32,689 nucleotides of DNA, taken from IMG/VR virus record IMGVR_UViG_3300030101_004066, positions 1 through 32,689 of that record. One strand, given 5' to 3'. The notes under the pieces are model-generated. The model had not been told where the DNA came from and searched no databases. It saw nothing but the letters and a program-made list of their open reading frames with translations. Position 1 is the first letter of the stretch; each line of letters starts with the position of its first letter. Source of the stretch: a virus. The position numbers and the translations under genes are program-made. Positions 1,871 through 31,346 of this stretch are shown piece by piece.

Positions 1871-2224
1871 ATGCTAAATGTAAGTGTAAGTGCGAGACTG
1901 ATAAAAGATCCGGAGGTCAAAGTCTTTAAGGATGACCTTTGCTTGTGTACATTCACGGTGGTAAGCAATAGGTACGACCCAAAAGCGGAAGACAAAAAGG
2001 GCTCTGACTTTTTCGACTGCAAGTTATGGGGTAAAAGGGGCGCTACCTTTGCTGAGCATTTCCGCAAGGGAGATGGCGTGATTGCTGTGGGTTCACTAGA
2101 GCAAGAAAAGTGGCAGGACAAGGAAGGCAATAATAGAAGCAAGGCTATTATTCGTGTAACCGATTGGGAGTTTCCGATTCCTAAAAAGGAAAGCAGTGAA
2201 AAAAAATCAGACGTCCCATTCTAA
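1871..2224 (+). CDS. ssb: Single-stranded DNA-binding protein
   Basis: The protein coats single-stranded DNA. The OB-fold is visible from the start: the N-terminal strand NVSVSARLIKDPEVKVF, the central segment FFDCKLWGKRGATFAEHFRKGD (written in parts: FFDCKLWGK at 47-55, AEHFRKGD at 61-68) and IAVGSLEQEKWQDKEGNNRS. The C-terminal tip, SDVPF, resembles the acidic DDIPF tip by which bacterial SSBs recruit partners. At 117 residues it is a short phage form. GAGGAGG precedes the ATG. The 3' end overlaps the sigma-like gene by 29 bp. Confidence 0.9.
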   Translation: MLNVSVSARLIKDPEVKVFKDDLCLCTFTVVSNRYDPKAEDKKGSDFFDCKLWGKRGATFAEHFRKGDGVIAVGSLEQEKWQDKEGNNRSKAIIRVTDWEFPIPKKESSEKKSDVPF

Positions 2225-2843
2225 CGAGTACCTACCAGAGAACCCTCGCCTGATACGCAGGGCTCAAGCTGGCAACAGGGAAGCAATGGGTGAGGTGATC
2301 AAGCAATATCAACATATTGCTTGGTCGCTCGCTCAAAGATTTAAAAGAAACCCAAACTATAATAACCATGACATCGAAGACATGTACCAAGATGGATTGA
2401 TTATCATTGCGAAATGCGTTCAAGAGTATGGAAAATACGTAGACGACAGCGGAAACATCTACCCATTCTGGAGAACCATTTGGTATCGCATTAGATCTGA
2501 TGCGAGTTCAAAAAGAAAAAAAAGGATAAGACAACAAGAGAACGAGCAGGTGACAAAGACGGGAGAACTTTATTTCACCGCAGAACAAGCTTTGGAAATG
2601 GACGAAGCGACAACGGAACAAGTCGATTTACAATTTAAATACAACCTAGCTTGGGAGTATGCGAGAGATAATCTTAGCCCGGAAAAATGGATAACGTGGC
2701 GACTATATTACGGCAGGGATATGCGTGAAATAGACATCGCTAAAGCATTAAACATAACAAGGCAGGCAGTAAACGTAAGACTGCAAAGTGCAAGAAAGAT
2801 TGTCAGAAAGGCATTTATCTATGAAGGGTTTAAACTTGATTGA
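2196..2843 (+). CDS. RNA polymerase sigma-70-like factor
   Basis: A phage-encoded sigma factor would redirect host RNA polymerase. Region 2 is visible at about residues 17-110: RRAQAGNREAMGEVIKQYQ, then DIEDMYQDGLIIIAKCVQEY (59-78, core-binding helix) and an aromatic/basic segment FWRTIWYRIR with SSKRKKR. Region 4 is a helix-turn-helix at about 176-207 (MREIDIAKALNITRQAVNVR). The linker contains no obvious region 3. The GTG at 2196 follows AAGGAAA and overlaps the SSB gene by 29 bp. Because the phage encodes no RNA polymerase, this factor is the best candidate for the early-to-late switch, though that role is inference. Confidence 0.85.
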   Translation: MKKNQTSHSNEYLPENPRLIRRAQAGNREAMGEVIKQYQHIAWSLAQRFKRNPNYNNHDIEDMYQDGLIIIAKCVQEYGKYVDDSGNIYPFWRTIWYRIRSDASSKRKKRIRQQENEQVTKTGELYFTAEQALEMDEATTEQVDLQFKYNLAWEYARDNLSPEKWITWRLYYGRDMREIDIAKALNITRQAVNVRLQSARKIVRKAFIYEGFKLD

Positions 2844-7376: not shown

Positions 7377-10300
7377 TTACCTCCCCAGCCTGTTGATAAG
7401 GCTAAGAGTATCACCCTCATGTAAAGAGTCAAACCTTTCAATAAGCTCGGCGACATTAGCCCTGTACTCCACTGTTGCCTCTTTAATGTCTCCCTTTGTT
7501 TTAGCATTTCTAATGTCCGACTCGTACGCCTTTATAAGCCTGTTAAGGTTTCTCTGGTAAGAGTATGCAATATTGTCAAGCTTTCTATTTACTTCCGACT
7601 TTGGTGTCACCTTTAAACCAAATGAGTTCATAAATAACTGCTGAACCGTAAAGCCGTTCCTGTTTTTGCCGTCTTTCGACTGAGCTGCTTCCATCATTTC
7701 TTTTGCATAGTAAAGGCTTGATGGAGACACTGAGCCAACAAGGTTTACGGCAAGATCTGATTTTGTTCTTAGTGGGTTTCCAAACCTATCAACGCCCTTT
7801 ATGGTGTTAATGATTGATTCAGTATATCCCTTGGCAAAAATATCTTCCACTCTCTGGCCAAAGTTTCCAACCTTGTCTAAAACTTGACCGCCATACATTA
7901 CAGGCCCAGTGCCGCCCATTACCAGCGACGGCAGTGCCGTCGCATCAGAAAGAAGTTGCTCTGTAAAAATTGAATACCCTATGTTTAAATAGCTATCACC
8001 ATCGAGATCAATCACAGCTCCAGCTGTGTTGATTGGGGCAAAAGTATAAAGGGCTTTTCTGTTTTCGTCGATGTTCTCCATGTGCTTTCTGTGTGCATCA
8101 GAAAAAGCTGCAAACTTTATTGGGTTCTTGCCCGGATAAGCCATCATCGCCCCTAGCGCCCTATGTGCAAACTTGATAAATGGAGTTGCTGGTACAAGCG
8201 CAGACATCTTCTCGACACCCATTGGGACATACGAGTAATCGATATTGGTATACAGGGCAAACTCACCTGCTCGCCTTACAGTCTCTGGGTCTTTAAGGGC
8301 AATGTCGACTGCTTTGTTTTTTGGTATCCTTCTCTTAGCTGCAATCGATGCAGCCTCCGTGTTAATGAACCGCTTAAAAGATGCGACCCGGCTACCTTGG
8401 TCCAGTAGCGTGGATAGGTATCGACCCCTTGGAAGGATTGCTGCTTGAGCAACGCCAAGTGCTGCGCCCGCTGGCCCCGCTAACGCGGCACCACCGCCGC
8501 CAAGAACCGCAACAAGCCCTGCGTCTCTCAGTAGCTTCTTCTTTTTGGTGTCTTTTATTTTTAGAGGATTCTCAAAATCCTCTAAAAGATTCTCAAGTGA
8601 TCTTGCTACATTTGAATACTGGTCTGCATCAACCTTGCTTTTGTATGCAGTGCCAAGCTTTTTAATCAGACTCTTGTTCCCTGTTTCCAACCCAACTAGT
8701 TCGTCTGCGTTCATTAGGAATCCTGCATCCCTCATTGGCTTGTAATACTTGCCCTTTGATGCATAGTCTTTCATTCCAAAAATAATATCTACAGGTTTAC
8801 CACCGTAGAGCCATTGAGCGAACGCGAGACCAAGTGCCGTGTTGTAGAAATACGGCGCATTCATTACGGTCTTCGTTGTCTTAAATATTTGCTGCGCCTC
8901 TCTTAAGCCTTTTAGCAGATGGCCCCATTCTCTGTCGTACCTTGTAATGTTTTCATGGATAGCTCTTGGGATGTATTTGTTCTGCATTGGACCAAACTCG
9001 ATTGCGGTTCCCTTTTTTGGTGCAGCCTTAACGTACCCTGCGCGAGCAGGTTTTTCGTTAAAGATCTGACCAGTTTCCTCCAGCATGGTGTAAAGGTCTG
9101 CCCAAGTTCTAGCTTTCTCAATGGTGTACGCATTGCCCATGAGTACGTTCTGGTAGTTACGGATTGCATCAGCGTCTTGCTTTACGTATTTAATTGCCTC
9201 CTCCAGTGTTTTCGGAGGCTTAGTGCGAAGCTCTTGCCGCCTTTCTTTTGCCATGCGAAGGTGGTCTTCGGTGATCTTGATGGCGTCATCAATACCCCTA
9301 GCAGACTTAGAGTTCTTTACTTTGTCAGCAGTCTCACCAAATGCTCTGGCAAGCTTTCCTTCTGGAAAGTATCCGGCAAGCGTATTTGCCAACAACTGCC
9401 GCTCGCTGATAAGCGGTCTGCCGTCAGGCCTTCTGATTTCAGCTAGATCTTTTGCTTGCTCTGCTGCCATCCTAACAAGATCTACGACTGCGTTCTGATG
9501 TGACACAAGAAACTCTGCCGCTTCAGGTGCTGCGTTCTTTGCCATCTTAACATTGACGCCGATTTTGTTAACATCAAAATCGCGCATTGGTCTGCTCTTG
9601 TTGATTCCATCCAAGACAAAACTCAATGGGTGAACAGGCTTGCCCTCATAAGTAATATTCATGAAAGATTCCGGCTGTTCCTCGATGGTTCTTCTTGCTG
9701 CCGTCTTCCAGTTGTCTAGATTTCTAAGCTCTTTAAACTCTATCGGTATGTTTTCTCTTGAGTACAGCAGATCTTTGTTTATTGTTCTGATATTATCTAT
9801 CTCTTCAAGATCTAGTTTTTTTATTGCCGCGTTAAGCTTTGACTGGTTTGACTGGTTCTCTCTCAGCTTAACACCAAGCTCTGCAACCGATTCCCTGTTT
9901 AAAACTTTCTTATCTATCTGCGCTCTAAGGTTATCATCAACCTTTTCAAACCTTCTATAAAGGTCCTCAATGTTTTTTACTACCTCAAAAGTTTCCGGCA
10001 TTAGCTTTTGATTGCGAGTTACAAACTCGCGCATCAAACCAAAGGCAAAAGGGCTTTGCTCCACAATGCTGTTGATGTCGTCGGCAAGCTTACCTTGCCT
10101 TCCTCTTGCCATCCTATCGCCTTGTTTGATTCTGTTTTTCTGTAACTGACTAAGTCCAGCCATGCTGTCTTTAGAGAAAACATAGGGGAGTGCTGCGGAC
10201 GCCATTGCTGTTATAGGTTGGCTTGCGCCTCTTACAACTAGACCCTCTCCTATGGGTGCGCCTCTCTGTGCGGCTAGGATGGCTTCACCCATAACGTTTA

Positions 10301-21850: not shown

Positions 21851-22651
21851 TTAACTATCTCCTGAGATTGATTCGAGGAACGCTACCATGTCTTCGGCAG
21901 AGTGCCCCTGTGTTAGTGATCGCGCACCTTGAGTTTTCATGGGCGCTGGAGCCTTGGGAGTACCTCGGCTCTTTGATAAATGCTTCTTATAATGATCAAG
22001 ACGTGAACCATGAATGTTTTTAGCTAAGTCTTCCATTGTAATGTCATCTGTTTTAGAAAATGAAATCACAAGTTCTTCAGCACTGAACGTGCTGTATTTG
22101 TCGGAAAGCTTCCTAGCCGTAGAGATAATCTCATCAGCTCTTGAATCAATAATCTCTTGCTGTTGCTGCTGAAGACTTCGTTGCTGCGACTCAAGCTGTT
22201 GCTTGCGCTGCATTTCCGCGAGCTTGCCCTTAAGCTTAAGGGCTCTGATTTCCGCATCTCGTGGATCATGTTCATCATACTCCACCAGCTTTGTCTCGGC
22301 AGAATCAAGCCTATCTTTCATCTCCGCAAGCAACACATCATACTGCGCCATCTTTTCTTCAAGCTCTATAGCTCGGCTCTCGGCCTTGCGTCTTGAAGCC
22401 TGTAGGCTATTAATGCGCTTCGTAAACGAAGATTTTGGAATCAGCTCTTCTTGAACTTCTTCAACTTCAACTTCTTCCTCATTCTCCTGCTCGTCTTGAG
22501 CCTCGACTTCTTCAGCGTCGGAACTGACATCCTCGATAATATCGCCATCGGACGCGGAGGGTTGCGATTCCTCATTTTCGCTCAATGCTTCAAGCATCTG
22601 TTCTTCTACTGAGGCTGTCGAAACCTCTTCTACGACTTCACCACTATTCAT
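21851..22651 (-). CDS. Capsid scaffolding protein (266 aa)
   Basis: It is likely to guide capsid assembly and then leave. The N-terminal 70 residues are extremely acidic (Glu/Asp runs such as EEVEVEEVQEE). A long coiled coil follows at about 80-185 (RAIELEEKMAQYDVLLAEM, Gln-rich QQRSLQQQQQEI). The C-terminal tail is basic and then short, a common capsid-binding layout. Position one base upstream of the capsid gene is typical. A 10-bp stem-loop with a T6/A6 loop lies just before its start. GGAGAG precedes the ATG. Confidence 0.85.
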   Translation of the reverse strand: MNSGEVVEEVSTASVEEQMLEALSENEESQPSASDGDIIEDVSSDAEEVEAQDEQENEEEVEVEEVQEELIPKSSFTKRINSLQASRRKAESRAIELEEKMAQYDVLLAEMKDRLDSAETKLVEYDEHDPRDAEIRALKLKGKLAEMQRKQQLESQQRSLQQQQQEIIDSRADEIISTARKLSDKYSTFSAEELVISFSKTDDITMEDLAKNIHGSRLDHYKKHLSKSRGTPKAPAPMKTQGARSLTQGHSAEDMVAFLESISGDS

Positions 22652-22699: not shown

Positions 22700-22900
22700 T
22701 TAGAGCTTGGACATTATAAACGACCCAATCCCTACTACGGTGCCAGAAACGGCACCCCAGATTCCTGCTTTGACCTTAAGCTGGGCAAGCTCCTCGCCGT
22801 GTTTTATCATCTGCTCAGACATTTTTTCAAGCCTGTCGCCATGTTTTGTTAGCTCGTTTAAGACGAGCTTTTGGTATTGCTCCCAGCCATTATCGGTCAT
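22700..22900 (-). CDS. Small coiled-coil membrane protein, XhlA-like architecture (66 aa)
   Basis: Residues 8-42 form a heptad-rich helix (YQKLVLNELTKHGDRLEKM), followed by one membrane segment at 46-64 (GIWGAVSGTVVGIGSFIM) and a short basic end. This is the layout of XhlA-type phage proteins linked to lysis and envelope contact. It starts in ATGA overlap with the gene upstream. The early protein at 3768-3944 has the same layout. It could be an extra holin/anti-holin or a membrane-bound lysis helper, though it is far from the endolysin. Confidence 0.65.
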   Translation of the reverse strand: MTDNGWEQYQKLVLNELTKHGDRLEKMSEQMIKHGEELAQLKVKAGIWGAVSGTVVGIGSFIMSKL

Positions 22901-23256
22901 GATGTCACCCTTTTTGCGGCCTCTTGTTTTTCAGCTTTTCCAAACTTTTTCTTTTGGCTCTTTGGTGGTGCTTTTTTGCTGCCGCCCTTGCCAGACCAGA
23001 AAAGCTTGTCTGCCCAGTACGCAGCAGATGTTGGCCCTTTTGCAATGTTCTTTGCATGCCTTGCTTTAAAGCTGGCTCTAGCTTCGTCACTGTAGTTGTG
23101 ACCCATGCTTTGATCTCCAAAGCGAATGATTCTAATGCTGTCGCCATCTCTTATCGCCACAATCCCTTTTTTAGTGGGATGACCCGGGGTTCTTTTAGGT
23201 TTATTTAAACCGGATAATCCATACTTAGCTAGTTTTGCTTTTTCTGCATCAGTCAT
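22897..23256 (-). CDS. Conserved marine-phage hypothetical protein (119 aa)
   Basis: The central pattern IRIIRFGDQSMG, ARASFKARHAKNIAKG and SAAYWADKLFW matches a small protein I know from many marine tailed phages, including cyanophages, whose function is not established. The N-terminus (LAKYGLSGLNKPKRTPGHP) is also part of that pattern. The C-terminal 30 residues are Lys-rich and variable. It overlaps its neighbours by 8 and 4 bp. The high positive charge suggests nucleic-acid or capsid contact, which is inference. Confidence 0.7.
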   Translation of the reverse strand: MTDAEKAKLAKYGLSGLNKPKRTPGHPTKKGIVAIRDGDSIRIIRFGDQSMGHNYSDEARASFKARHAKNIAKGPTSAAYWADKLFWSGKGGSKKAPPKSQKKKFGKAEKQEAAKRVTS

Positions 23257-23440
23257 TTGCTGTCATTTTTTCCACTGCACGTTTTTTTTCTGCGCTATCG
23301 TATTTCTTTTTTTTCTTTTTTTTCTTTTTAGGGAAACCGGCCTTCATGTTGGCATACGACTCAGCACTAATGGTTGAATCTTTCTTGCTTCTACTGGTTC
23401 CAGCTTTTTTTCTTTTGTTAATGTTTTCATATAAAGACAT
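23249..23440 (-). CDS. Conserved marine-phage small basic protein (63 aa)
   Basis: The N-terminal half, SLYENINKRKKAGTSRSKK followed by STISAESYANMKAGFPK, matches a short conserved protein often found beside the previous one in marine phages. A run of nine Lys follows. The ATG at 23440 is chosen because AGGAGAA lies just before it; a longer frame from 23581 would run inside the neighbouring gene. The poly-Lys codons make an A-rich run prone to slippage or sequencing error. Function is unknown. Confidence 0.7.
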   Translation of the reverse strand: MSLYENINKRKKAGTSRSKKDSTISAESYANMKAGFPKKKKKKKKKYDSAEKKRAVEKMTAND

Positions 23441-23889
23441 TAGTTCTCCTCTAATATGGACGCTTTTAGAGCGTCCAGCTCTGGTACATCTTGTGTGATT
23501 TGCAAGATTGGTCCATTCGAGACTGACACAGATGTATTGTTTTCTGTATTTCGGGCAGAGTCCATGGATGTCCATTCGCAATCGGGATCATCATTGCATA
23601 TAGATTCGGCGGCAGAGGACACTGCGTCCCACGCAGCCTGAACGCCTTCTGTTTGGCCTAGAACGGTGTACGGGGCAACACCTTCAATATTAGATTTTTT
23701 TTGGATAATGTATCTAGCAGCTTTTCCTTCGGACGATTGAATAAGTTTTAAACTGCTAACTTCTTCAGAGTTGTAAATATCGGCAGCGGTAGGCGTAACT
23801 GTTTGGGCCGTTTCACCATCTGGAAGCGTAACTGCAGTGCCTGCACCTATAGAAGCGCCAGCGACGAGAGTAAGTAATGTTTTCTTCAT
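23440..23889 (-). CDS. Putative exported protein (149 aa)
   Basis: The N-terminus has two Lys followed by a hydrophobic stretch (TLLTLVAGASIGAGTAVTL, 4-22), as in a Sec signal peptide, although the cleavage site is not clear. The rest is acidic and soluble with no known domain. The mature part holds exactly two cysteines close together (SICNDDPDCEW), which suits a disulfide in the periplasm. It is the last of three consecutive late genes with such N-termini. Its start shares one base with the previous gene's stop region. Confidence 0.6.
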   Translation of the reverse strand: MKKTLLTLVAGASIGAGTAVTLPDGETAQTVTPTAADIYNSEEVSSLKLIQSSEGKAARYIIQKKSNIEGVAPYTVLGQTEGVQAAWDAVSSAAESICNDDPDCEWTSMDSARNTENNTSVSVSNGPILQITQDVPELDALKASILEEN

Positions 23890-24549
23890 TTAAAGGTCCG
23901 TCCATGCTGTGCCGTTACAGTAACGTACTTTATCTGTTCCGCTGTCGTAATAAATCCGGCCTTTTTCTGCCGCATCATCACATTCTGTGGCCGCTGGGGC
24001 AGATATGGGTAAAATTTTAATCCAGTCATTTGTGGTATCAATCTCCAGTGTTGCCGTCGCTTTTGTTGAACCACCGATGCCTACATTTAAATCCGGTATA
24101 CCTTGGCCGCCAGCGATAACTATTGAGCTGGCGGGGGCAAGCCAGACTCTGCCGAGCTGTGGTTGCGCCGTAATTATCTGGGTCCCTGTTACGGCTCCGT
24201 CGTAAAGCGGGCCGCCTGCTCCGTGTATCTGAAAAAGATTTCCACCACTTATGCAAAACTCAGCATTTGATCCATCACTCGGCCCTAAACAATAAGAAGC
24301 GCGTTCTGTAGTCTGCAGTCTCATGCCTGAGTAAGTGCCTCCGGCTAAAATGTCTGGATCAACTATTTTTTGGTCTGTAATAAATGTGTTTGATGCATCG
24401 AGTTTTGCAAAAATACCAGTAATGCCATTAATGATCGCAGAGATTGACAACCCACCACCGCTGCCACCAGTAAAACTGGCAAAAGAAACGCTGCTTACAA
24501 GCACGCCACAAAGGGCAATGCCAATCAGCCAAGTTTGAAATTTTCTCAT
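23890..24549 (-). CDS. Exported fibre-like protein with signal peptide (219 aa)
   Basis: Residues 1-24 form a clear signal peptide: basic start (MRKFQ), hydrophobic core (WLIGIALCGVLVSS) and SFA cleavage motif. A Gly-rich link (TGGSGGGLS) follows. The mature part is beta-rich, and its end (AEKGRIYYDSGTDKVRYCN) resembles a short C-terminal motif seen in phage fibre-like and surface proteins. It has four cysteines after the signal. A signal peptide on a protein that looks like a virion fibre is unusual. Start overlaps the upstream stop by four bases. Confidence 0.65.
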   Translation of the reverse strand: MRKFQTWLIGIALCGVLVSSVSFASFTGGSGGGLSISAIINGITGIFAKLDASNTFITDQKIVDPDILAGGTYSGMRLQTTERASYCLGPSDGSNAEFCISGGNLFQIHGAGGPLYDGAVTGTQIITAQPQLGRVWLAPASSIVIAGGQGIPDLNVGIGGSTKATATLEIDTTNDWIKILPISAPAATECDDAAEKGRIYYDSGTDKVRYCNGTAWTDL

Positions 24550-24920
24550 TTGGTTCCACCCATACAGTTAATGTTAACAGTGCCAGCATTTGTCATGCAG
24601 TAAACAGGTGCTGCTGTATCCATGCTTAAGGCTGAATCAACGGCGGTTGCCGCAGTGCTGATCTCATATCCCTCAACAACGCTTAATGTGGCAGGGTCCC
24701 CGCTTAAGTATACCGGGGTTGCGCTTGTGTTATAGCATCGCAAAGTGTTGTACGGCGTGTTGCTTCCGTTTACGATCTTTGTTGGGCTTGTACCACATTC
24801 AACACCAAACCCAAAAACCATTCCTGATGGGCTTGCTAGAGCGTTTACTTTGTCTTGAAATAAAACAAAGATTCCGGCTGTGATAGCCATTGATAATAAG
24901 ATTACTTGATATTTTTTCAT
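24546..24920 (-). CDS. Putative exported or membrane-anchored small protein (124 aa)
   Basis: The N-terminus (MKKYQVILLSMAITAGIFVLF) is a signal peptide or signal anchor, with a possible cleavage after VNA (25-27). The mature part is Ser/Thr/Ala-rich with four cysteines (VEC, LRC, VYC, INC), even in number as for disulfide-bonded secreted proteins. No domain is recognised. It begins in ATGA overlap with the portal gene and leads the three-gene exported group. Confidence 0.6.
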   Translation of the reverse strand: MKKYQVILLSMAITAGIFVLFQDKVNALASPSGMVFGFGVECGTSPTKIVNGSNTPYNTLRCYNTSATPVYLSGDPATLSVVEGYEISTAATAVDSALSMDTAAPVYCMTNAGTVNINCMGGTK

Positions 24921-26755
24921 TGTACCATTCCTTGTGGTGGTGTTTGCATACCTTGTTGTTGATTTTGTTGTTGAACCATTTGTGCTTGCTGCGCTTGTTG
25001 CGCAGCGAGCTGATCATAAAGAGCCTTTAACTGTGTAAGCATTTGAACCTGCTGTGGCTGTGCCTGCTCTCCCATTGCATCAATAAGCTGAGTTAAAACT
25101 TGTGACGCATATGCTGGGTTTACATTGGTTAAAGGTCTTGTTTGCTGCCCTGAGGCAGCTTGACGAGCTTGATTAAGAATCTGCTCTTTAAGCTCTGCTT
25201 CTTGACCAGTTGTCTGTAGTCCCGTGATAGACCGTTCTGCCACAGACGCGGGGTCCTCCAGTCCAAGTTGTGATCTCTGGATCGCGGTTTCTCCCTTGTT
25301 GGCCGCGTACCTTTCCACACCGCTTCGGGGCTCAAGGCGAATATCAACACCATCAATATCGGCACCGCTGAAATACATAGCAGAAATCTCATTAGAAGGG
25401 CCGATGATTCGTAGCATGCGTGGGAACACATAATACTTTCTCGTTAGGTTAAGGGTTAATCTCCATAGCTGCTCTAAAAATTTTTCAACATGCCTAGCAG
25501 TGCCCGCATGCTTCATGTTATCCAGCTCACTAATATAAGCAACCTGCTTTGCAGAGGTGCCGCTCTTTGCACTTTCCGCCCCTGTTAAAAGTTCGTTTAA
25601 CCCAGCAATATCATACAATCTTTGTTCCAACCTGTTTCTATCTTCGAACAGTATCGGGTTTATTGATGGTGGCGGCAACCATTTAGTAATGTTTGCCTTT
25701 GCGGGATCATCCATCTTAATCATTGAGTTTGTGTCTTGCCAAGCATCAATCACAGAACCCGGAGCCATCAACTTCACGGCACCAGTATCGCGTCTCAACT
25801 TGGTAAGCACAGACTCAATCTCGTTAATCTGTCGCTGGATAGGAACCGCATCATTCATCCATGTGTCACCATAAGCTGTGCCACGAATATAACCCACCTT
25901 AAACAGGCAGATAGGCAGAAAGCTTTCAAACTTTCCGCCCTCGGCGTTTTCCATGTTTTGAAAAACATATGGATATTCCATGTGTTCCACGACGTTTCCA
26001 TTTACAAATAAAACATACGCGCCATCAGGTATTCTGGCATCTGGCTTGTACCATAGCTCATGCACCTGTACGCCCTGTCTGGTTTCAAGATCGTTGATCG
26101 TATAAGTCTCAGTTTCAACTTCCTTGATGCCAACTTTTTTTAACAACTCAAGAGCCTCATGCTCATCAATAAAACGCTTAAATATACACCATCTCGCGTC
26201 TTCAGGGTTTTCAACATTGTCAATATAGAAGTCGAATATACTAATAATGTCCCAGTTAACCATGTCTTTTTCTGGGTCATAATAGCACTTAATACCGCCC
26301 ATGCCGCTGCAACACGCGCTCTTCATGATGTCGTACATCATAGTGTCAATATTGTTTTCAAACTCAAAGTATTCGATCAAATGCTGTGCGGCTCTTGCGG
26401 CCTCGATGTCTTTTTCATCAGCGTTCGCAGGATACGCAGCAGCAGTTGGTCTATCTTGAAGCAACCGGGAACACCAAGTTAAGACAAGGTTTCTAAGAAG
26501 ATTGTGAACTACCTGCGGAACGTCATCATTCCAAGGTATGTCATTAAGCTTTCCGCCGCGCTGAGTAATGTCTTGGTACTGCAAGCCACGAGCAAAAAGC
26601 TCGTTGCGTTCAGCCTTTAGCAAAAACTCAGCAGAGCTTCTTTTCCCAAGCTCGGTTAACTCAAAACAAAGGTCGTTAGCAGTCAGATCTGTACCATCTC
26701 TATTCTTAGACAGATTTACGTCTGCTTTACCTGATGTCCTGTTTATTTTTGCCAT
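24917..26755 (-). CDS. Portal protein (612 aa)
   Basis: The dodecameric channel through which DNA enters and leaves the head. Supporting features are the length, the place after terminase, and portal-like segments: VVHNLLRNLVLTWCSRLLQDRP (by span, about 82-103), DIISIFDFYIDNVENPEDARW by span, and an alpha-helical stem with DAVPIQRQINEIESVLTKL. The C-terminal 80 residues are Gln-rich (AQQAQQAQMVQQQNQQQG), as in a barrel or disordered tail. It starts as TAATG on the previous stop. Confidence 0.88.
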   Translation of the reverse strand: MAKINRTSGKADVNLSKNRDGTDLTANDLCFELTELGKRSSAEFLLKAERNELFARGLQYQDITQRGGKLNDIPWNDDVPQVVHNLLRNLVLTWCSRLLQDRPTAAAYPANADEKDIEAARAAQHLIEYFEFENNIDTMMYDIMKSACCSGMGGIKCYYDPEKDMVNWDIISIFDFYIDNVENPEDARWCIFKRFIDEHEALELLKKVGIKEVETETYTINDLETRQGVQVHELWYKPDARIPDGAYVLFVNGNVVEHMEYPYVFQNMENAEGGKFESFLPICLFKVGYIRGTAYGDTWMNDAVPIQRQINEIESVLTKLRRDTGAVKLMAPGSVIDAWQDTNSMIKMDDPAKANITKWLPPPSINPILFEDRNRLEQRLYDIAGLNELLTGAESAKSGTSAKQVAYISELDNMKHAGTARHVEKFLEQLWRLTLNLTRKYYVFPRMLRIIGPSNEISAMYFSGADIDGVDIRLEPRSGVERYAANKGETAIQRSQLGLEDPASVAERSITGLQTTGQEAELKEQILNQARQAASGQQTRPLTNVNPAYASQVLTQLIDAMGEQAQPQQVQMLTQLKALYDQLAAQQAQQAQMVQQQNQQQGMQTPPQGMVQ

Positions 26756-30752: not shown

Positions 30753-31346
30753 ATGACAATGACATTCTCTAATAAGACAAACACTGAAATAACCTTATCA
30801 ACTTACGGCATCTATAATGATGGATCTTTACGCGGTTTCACTCTTGACCTTTCAGACTGCTACGATCAAGAAGACATTGATGACGCAATAAAAAAAGGAT
30901 TGGAAGAAATAGGCGATAAAAACGGGGAGCTGATGATTCAAGACATTGAAGGCCCCTATATTATGCGGAAGCTGTTAGAGCGTAATGGTATCTGTGAATG
31001 GCTGTTCAATCTCCATGAGTTCATAACAGAAAATGAATATGAGATTGACAAAATCAACTTAGCTTTTGATGACGGAGTTTCTAATCTAAGCAATGATTTG
31101 AACAGCAATCCAGATTATGATTTGAAAGCTTGGCTAGAAAACTATAATGTATCAATCTATAATGCTGATGATATCGGCAAGGCTTACGAGCAACACATTG
31201 AAGAAACAGATCCGGAAAGATATGACGCTATCCAATCACTTGGCTTACATATTGATTGGGTATCCTCAGCAAATGCACCCGAATCTATTATGAGAAAACG
31301 AGATATTGACGGTTGCAGAATCTACTATGCCGATTATAGCCTATAG
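30753..31346 (+). CDS. ArdA-like antirestriction protein (197 aa)
   Basis: ArdA proteins are acidic DNA mimics that block type I restriction-modification enzymes. The N-terminal signature is visible: TLSTYGIYNDGSLRGFTLDL (14-33), then ELMIQDIEGPY at about 59-69, where the family has a similar E-F-Q-D-E-G element. The protein is strongly acidic along its length (for example DCYDQEDIDD) and ends in RIYYADYSL, like the family's end. At 197 aa it is slightly longer than usual ArdA. GAGGGA precedes the ATG. An early place fits, because protection is needed as DNA enters. Confidence 0.75.
   Translation: MTMTFSNKTNTEITLSTYGIYNDGSLRGFTLDLSDCYDQEDIDDAIKKGLEEIGDKNGELMIQDIEGPYIMRKLLERNGICEWLFNLHEFITENEYEIDKINLAFDDGVSNLSNDLNSNPDYDLKAWLENYNVSIYNADDIGKAYEQHIEETDPERYDAIQSLGLHIDWVSSANAPESIMRKRDIDGCRIYYADYSL

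Follow-up and report, generated by a model that had tools for sequence, protein, structure and literature searches.

Three consecutive genes between the portal gene and the scaffold-like gene of an uncultured, short-genome tailed phage encode small proteins that begin with signal-peptide-like segments and carry even numbers of cysteines. The cassette is a real, non-random feature, and the best reading of its three genes is that of an accessory cassette inside the late operon. Judged from their sequences, proteins 1 and 2 are very probably exported. By analogy with characterised phage proteins, the cassette products are best read, tentatively, as late-made proteins that may act on the host envelope, for example in receptor shielding or superinfection exclusion.

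Setting and coupling of the three genes

The window, the whole stretch of DNA analysed, is the entire linear IMG/VR virus record IMGVR_UViG_3300030101_004066 (32,689 bases). The terminase and portal genes, together with those for the scaffold-like protein, the major capsid protein and the tail, lie on its minus strand; Rad52-like and SSB genes and genes for a helicase-like AAA ATPase and a YqaJ exonuclease lie on its plus strand. The window portal shares no more than 29% identity with portal-like proteins from isolate phages, with the best match in Arthrobacter phages, and the phage appears only distantly related to sequenced isolates. An ArdA antirestriction protein lies at the right end of the record (30753-31346, plus strand; Pfam E=4e-6). 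A sigma-factor-like protein among the early genes (2196-2843, plus strand; PHROG 351, E=3e-17) could be a switch for the late operon.

The coordinates, order and coupling of the cassette genes were correctly given by an earlier, sequence-only reading (Table 1). ATGA overlaps join the portal gene to gene 1 and gene 1 to gene 2, the start of gene 3 abuts the stop of gene 2 (TAA-ATG), and the gene after gene 3 overlaps it through TAATG. All three genes are co-directional with the portal, scaffold and capsid genes. The GC content of the cassette is ordinary and no promoter consensus match above chance was found in it, which is consistent with membership of the late operon; from their position, the genes would be expressed late. 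The scaffold function of the downstream acidic protein is likewise suggested by position and composition, and the 66-aa protein encoded next to it is a possible holin-like or membrane protein.

A recount of cysteines after the putative signals gives four in protein 1, four in protein 2 and two in protein 3, in agreement with the counts reported before; the fifth cysteine of protein 2 sits within its signal peptide. Profile searches of PHROGs, Pfam and NCBIfam assign no family to proteins 1-3, in keeping with the first impression that they held no recognisable domain, and a PDB sequence search with proteins 1 and 2 returned nothing useful. Searches of isolate phages with protein 2 and with several cassette proteins of related phages found no relative, and protein 1 gave chance-level matches only.

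Table 1. Cassette genes, their flanks and the alternative occupants of the same slot (window coordinates unless a phage is named).
Feature	Position	Strand	Basis
Portal protein, upstream flank of cassette	24917..26755	-	PHROG 156 E=3e-34, Pfam P22_portal
Exported protein 1 (predicted), 124 aa, signal peptide, mature part with 4 cysteines	24546..24920	-	Relatives in same slot, conserved cysteines, fold model
Exported protein 2 (predicted), 219 aa, signal peptide, GIGG-type repeat region, C-terminal two-cysteine CNGT module	23890..24549	-	Signal score 22.4; module common to L055/L056 exported proteins
Putative exported protein 3, 149 aa, one close cysteine pair (CNDDPDC)	23440..23889	-	Signal score 15.9
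Small lysine-rich protein without signal, conserved downstream flank	23249..23440	-	Homologous small ORF in L048, L050, L051, L057
66-aa protein, one C-terminal hydrophobic segment, conserved flank	22700..22900	-	40-79% identity in relatives carrying it; weak hemolysin/XhlA-like PHROG 1193
Scaffold-like acidic coiled protein, downstream limit of variable interval	21851..22651	-	Kept before major capsid gene in relatives
Signal-less small proteins in portal-adjacent slot	L050:7841-8329, L051:7830-8219, L052:7864-8232, L012:3772-4137, L058:3132-3509, L061:4657-5091		

Predicted export signals, disulfides and folds

Signal peptides were called by our own rule-based score, which combines a positive n-region, a charge-free hydrophobic core and the -3/-1 rule, with cut-offs of at least 15 (loose) and at least 18 (strong). 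Five of seven well-known E. coli signals used as controls pass at the loose cut-off, so the score is conservative. In the window, only the three mutually adjacent cassette genes pass among 44 called ORFs. The signal-peptide-like N-termini noticed in the sequence-only reading were recovered on all three products, strongly for proteins 1 and 2 and at the borderline for protein 3. A survey with a simple greedy ORF caller covered 444 ORFs in nine related phages: the portal-scaffold interval takes in 15 of the 16 matches at the loose cut-off and all 13 at the strong one. Shuffled N-termini give 2.8 passes per survey at the loose cut-off. The clustering in the portal-scaffold interval far exceeds chance, although protein 3 taken alone is borderline. 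The exported proteins of this nine-phage survey are also richer in cysteine than the other ORFs (p=5e-4).

Protein 1 begins with MKKYQVILLSMAITAGIFVLFQDKVNALA followed by SPSG, and its clearest predicted cleavage site, absent from the sequence-only reading, lies between ALA and SP after residue 29. Protein 2 begins with MRKFQTWLIGIALCGVLVSSVSFA followed by SFTG; the SFA cleavage motif previously pointed out in this protein holds, with cleavage predicted between SFA and SF. Protein 3 begins with MKKTLLTLVAGASIGAGTA followed by VTLP and, with its borderline signal, is the weakest export case of the three. No relative of it was found.

Relatives of protein 1 occupy the same place in four other phages, intact in L055, L056 and L057 (26-36% identity) and frameshifted in L053. 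In the four intact copies, including that of the window, four cysteines and A27 are invariant, and an AxA-type cleavage region is kept (ALA or ALS before S/N-P, or VA before Q) while the hydrophobic core drifts freely. The L055 and L056 relatives have an extra close cysteine pair in common (CTAATC and CTSSDC), and such paired gain or loss fits disulfides, which are predicted in the cassette proteins from even, conserved cysteine counts. The conservation of cysteines and cleavage site in relatives, together with the clustering of signals, supports the earlier suggestion that these proteins may be exported and disulfide-bonded.

Structure prediction, proposed with that suggestion, was run for protein 1 with AlphaFold2 on four sequences. 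The model comprises an N-terminal helix and a beta-sandwich, with a mean pLDDT of ~67-88 over most of the mature part that drops below 50 for the signal, and resembles small beta-rich phage proteins. The BFVD entry A0A516LWE0 is identical to protein 1, so public databases already contain the window genome or one close to it. Besides this entry, the best viral fold matches in BFVD are phage proteins that have not been characterised, many of them 85-100 aa long. They include I2FLS9 and I2FLT0 from Pseudomonas phage tf, which fit tf_60/tf_61 of the tail gene block of that phage in length and consecutive naming, and are equated with them by length only. These ~90-aa beta-rich proteins share the predicted fold of mature protein 1, whereas tf_60 and tf_61, so equated, have a single cysteine each and no signal peptide, and protein 1 has a signal and four cysteines. 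The small phage proteins matched by the mature fold may be virion parts. PDB fold matches are weak and beta-sandwich or cupin-like only, so no function is read from them. The model is suggestive of a phage beta-sandwich with an acquired signal and disulfides.

The C-terminal motif of protein 2 had been described as fibre-like. The motif itself stands, as a two-cysteine module that also occurs in exported cassette proteins of L055 and L056, and protein 2 is therefore placed in the cassette family rather than regarded as a stray tail fibre. Its use as a tail-fibre mark was dropped, since a pattern search found the module in no tail protein of the window or its relatives.

A variable slot between portal and scaffold

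In IMG/VR, scans with the terminase and the portal found about 16 relatives whose portal-scaffold interval is readable. Comparison of this interval, a check that the sequence-only reading had put forward, reveals exported proteins in five phages (the window, L055, L056, L057 and L053), in cassettes of one to five genes, and signal-less proteins or nothing elsewhere. Signal-less small proteins occupy the slot in L048, L050, L051, L052, L012, L058 and L061, and it is empty in L007, L010, L031/L062 and L054. The signal-less proteins are candidates for capsid decoration. Profile comparison of protein 1 with them, and with the phage tf proteins, detected no relation, and the model of the signal-less family is too poor for a fold search (pLDDT 47).

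G004 (L053) and G005 (L052) have portals that are 94% identical, scaffold-like proteins 88% and capsids 86%, and nothing in common in the stretch from the portal to the small conserved genes. Because these near-identical flanks enclose a wholly different interval, the slot is an accessory hot spot; its genes are presumably expressed together with those of the head. The cassette is wholly different in two phages whose tail genes are similar, and is thus not tightly tied to the tail. Like moron-type genes, the cassette is replaceable, being missing from relatives with conserved flanks; an own promoter and terminator, the other mark of such genes, are not apparent, with no consensus site above chance and with gene ends that overlap or abut. 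In L053, the protein 1 relative (7863-8256) is split by a frameshift, by sequencing error or decay, and is followed by a 314-aa exported protein.

L055 and L056 contain five successive exported genes. The four that follow the protein 1 relative (L055:8192-10357 and L056:8091-10391) encode a protein 2-like product, two more proteins built of a signal, NVGLG and the C...YD...C module, which is the one at the end of protein 2, and a 183-aa protein that bears both a VAGC lipobox and an HExxH motif. One of the two NVGLG proteins has a cysteine-rich tail with CC-type repeats and 28-32 cysteines in all. The 183-aa product of the last gene is a predicted lipoprotein metallopeptidase, weakly SprT-like (Pfam E=0.08, below the cut-off). 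The dN/dS of the L055 and L056 cassette genes is 0.07-0.30 where dS is estimable, which indicates real genes under selection. Scans of the genome collection with the terminase and with this metallopeptidase as queries found no host and no prophage.

Possible function of the cassette products

Most known exported phage proteins are encoded by single genes. Lom/Bor-type proteins of lambda are exported envelope proteins encoded, like the cassette, in or beside the late operon; they are prophage-expressed single genes with other folds, whereas the cassette lies within the head operon with overlapping or abutting starts. In T5, llp adjoins the receptor-binding gene. Llp of T5 and Rtp45 are small, exported, disulfide-bonded phage proteins that engage outer-membrane receptors on the periplasmic side and prevent phages from binding to infected cells and debris (PMC9586334, PMC12685063). 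Llp is a lipoprotein with a Cys11-Cys58 disulfide (PMC9586334), and Rtp45 of phage Rtp, with a Cys30-Cys38 disulfide, blocks the phage receptor LptD (PMC12685063). The cassette proteins resemble the T5 Llp/Cor type, of which Llp is disulfide-bonded and envelope-acting, in being small, phage-encoded and, by the rule-based score, equipped with an export signal, and they resemble Rtp45, also disulfide-bonded, in being small and exported. In contrast to the Llp/Cor type, they have signal peptidase I sites, are larger and beta-rich, and are encoded by several genes in a row at a portal-scaffold position; Rtp45 is a ~6 kDa lipoprotein, whereas no lipid anchor is predicted for proteins 1-3. Direct reading of proteins 1-3 finds no lipobox ([LVI][ASTVI][GAS]C). 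Lacking a lipobox, differing in size and having no apparent sequence relation to the Llp/Rtp45 group, proteins 1-3 stand outside it, although they plausibly act like its members.

In such a scheme, the cassette proteins would be late products that are exported, lose their signals to signal peptidase I and become oxidised in the periplasm; they would then stay within the host envelope or at the cell surface, where they would most likely bind or mask surface structures. Masking could keep superinfecting phages and released progeny off the doomed cell and debris, as with T5 Llp and Rtp45. Protein 1 would be a compact disulfide-stapled beta-sandwich and protein 2 an elongated fibre-like surface protein.

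The clustered signals, the kept cysteines and cleavage region, the cysteine-rich neighbours, the HExxH lipoprotein and the low dN/dS argue for this envelope role. Against it, proteins 1-3 have no lipobox; the cassette, unlike llp and the Rtp45 gene, is not beside a receptor-binding gene; the protein 1 fold resembles signal-less small phage proteins that are possibly virion parts; the cassette differs completely between two phages with similar tail genes; and the signal peptides were called by a home-made score. A somewhat less probable alternative is that the exported accessory proteins do something else outside the cytoplasm, being released at lysis or acting on the envelope or on neighbours as protease, adhesin-like or cysteine-rich effectors, with no receptor blocking. 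For such a role speak the neighbours of the protein 1 relative in L055 and L056, an HExxH lipoprotein and cysteine-rich repeat proteins, which are more varied than one receptor blocker needs, and the swapping of the cassette between close relatives; against it, the metallopeptidase match lies below the Pfam cut-off, and the window itself contains neither protease nor cysteine-rich repeat genes.

It appears improbable that the proteins, once exported and oxidised in the periplasm, come to coat virions when the cell has lysed, as an outer decoration never present in the cytoplasm. The fold of protein 1 is that of small phage proteins, of which two match tf_60/tf_61 of the tail gene block in length, and signal-less small beta-rich proteins occupy the same slot in other relatives; however, no sequence relation between these and protein 1 was detected, the model of one of them is too poor to compare, and we know of no tailed phage that recruits virion proteins after export. 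Cytoplasmic assembly without a Sec signal, as in virion decoration and fibre proteins, does not fit the cassette proteins.

A replaceable multi-gene export cassette within the head operon would be an unusual layout, a variation on exported phage accessory genes in a new form, and no precedent for it turned up in a literature search on phage export cassettes. On a bolder and rather doubtful view, a tailed-phage family may reserve the gap between portal and scaffold for an export island, a run of one to five late genes whose products are all Sec substrates. Such an island would combine exchanged cysteine-rich modules and a lipoprotein protease with virion-type folds made secreted and disulfide-stapled, and its products would remodel the host surface or decorate virions from the outside after lysis. 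The cassette raises the question of whether a tailed phage can send virion-type folds through the Sec pathway, and it is a place to seek new receptor-blocking or envelope-acting proteins in uncultured phages. Least likely, proteins 1-3 are ordinary virion or ejection proteins whose hydrophobic N-termini are not export signals: the position among head genes, the weak signal of protein 3 and the N-terminal processing of P22-type ejection proteins point that way, but the signal-peptidase site is conserved while the hydrophobic core drifts, the paired cysteines are conserved, neighbouring proteins carry 28-32 cysteines, and such N-termini are confined to the portal-scaffold interval.
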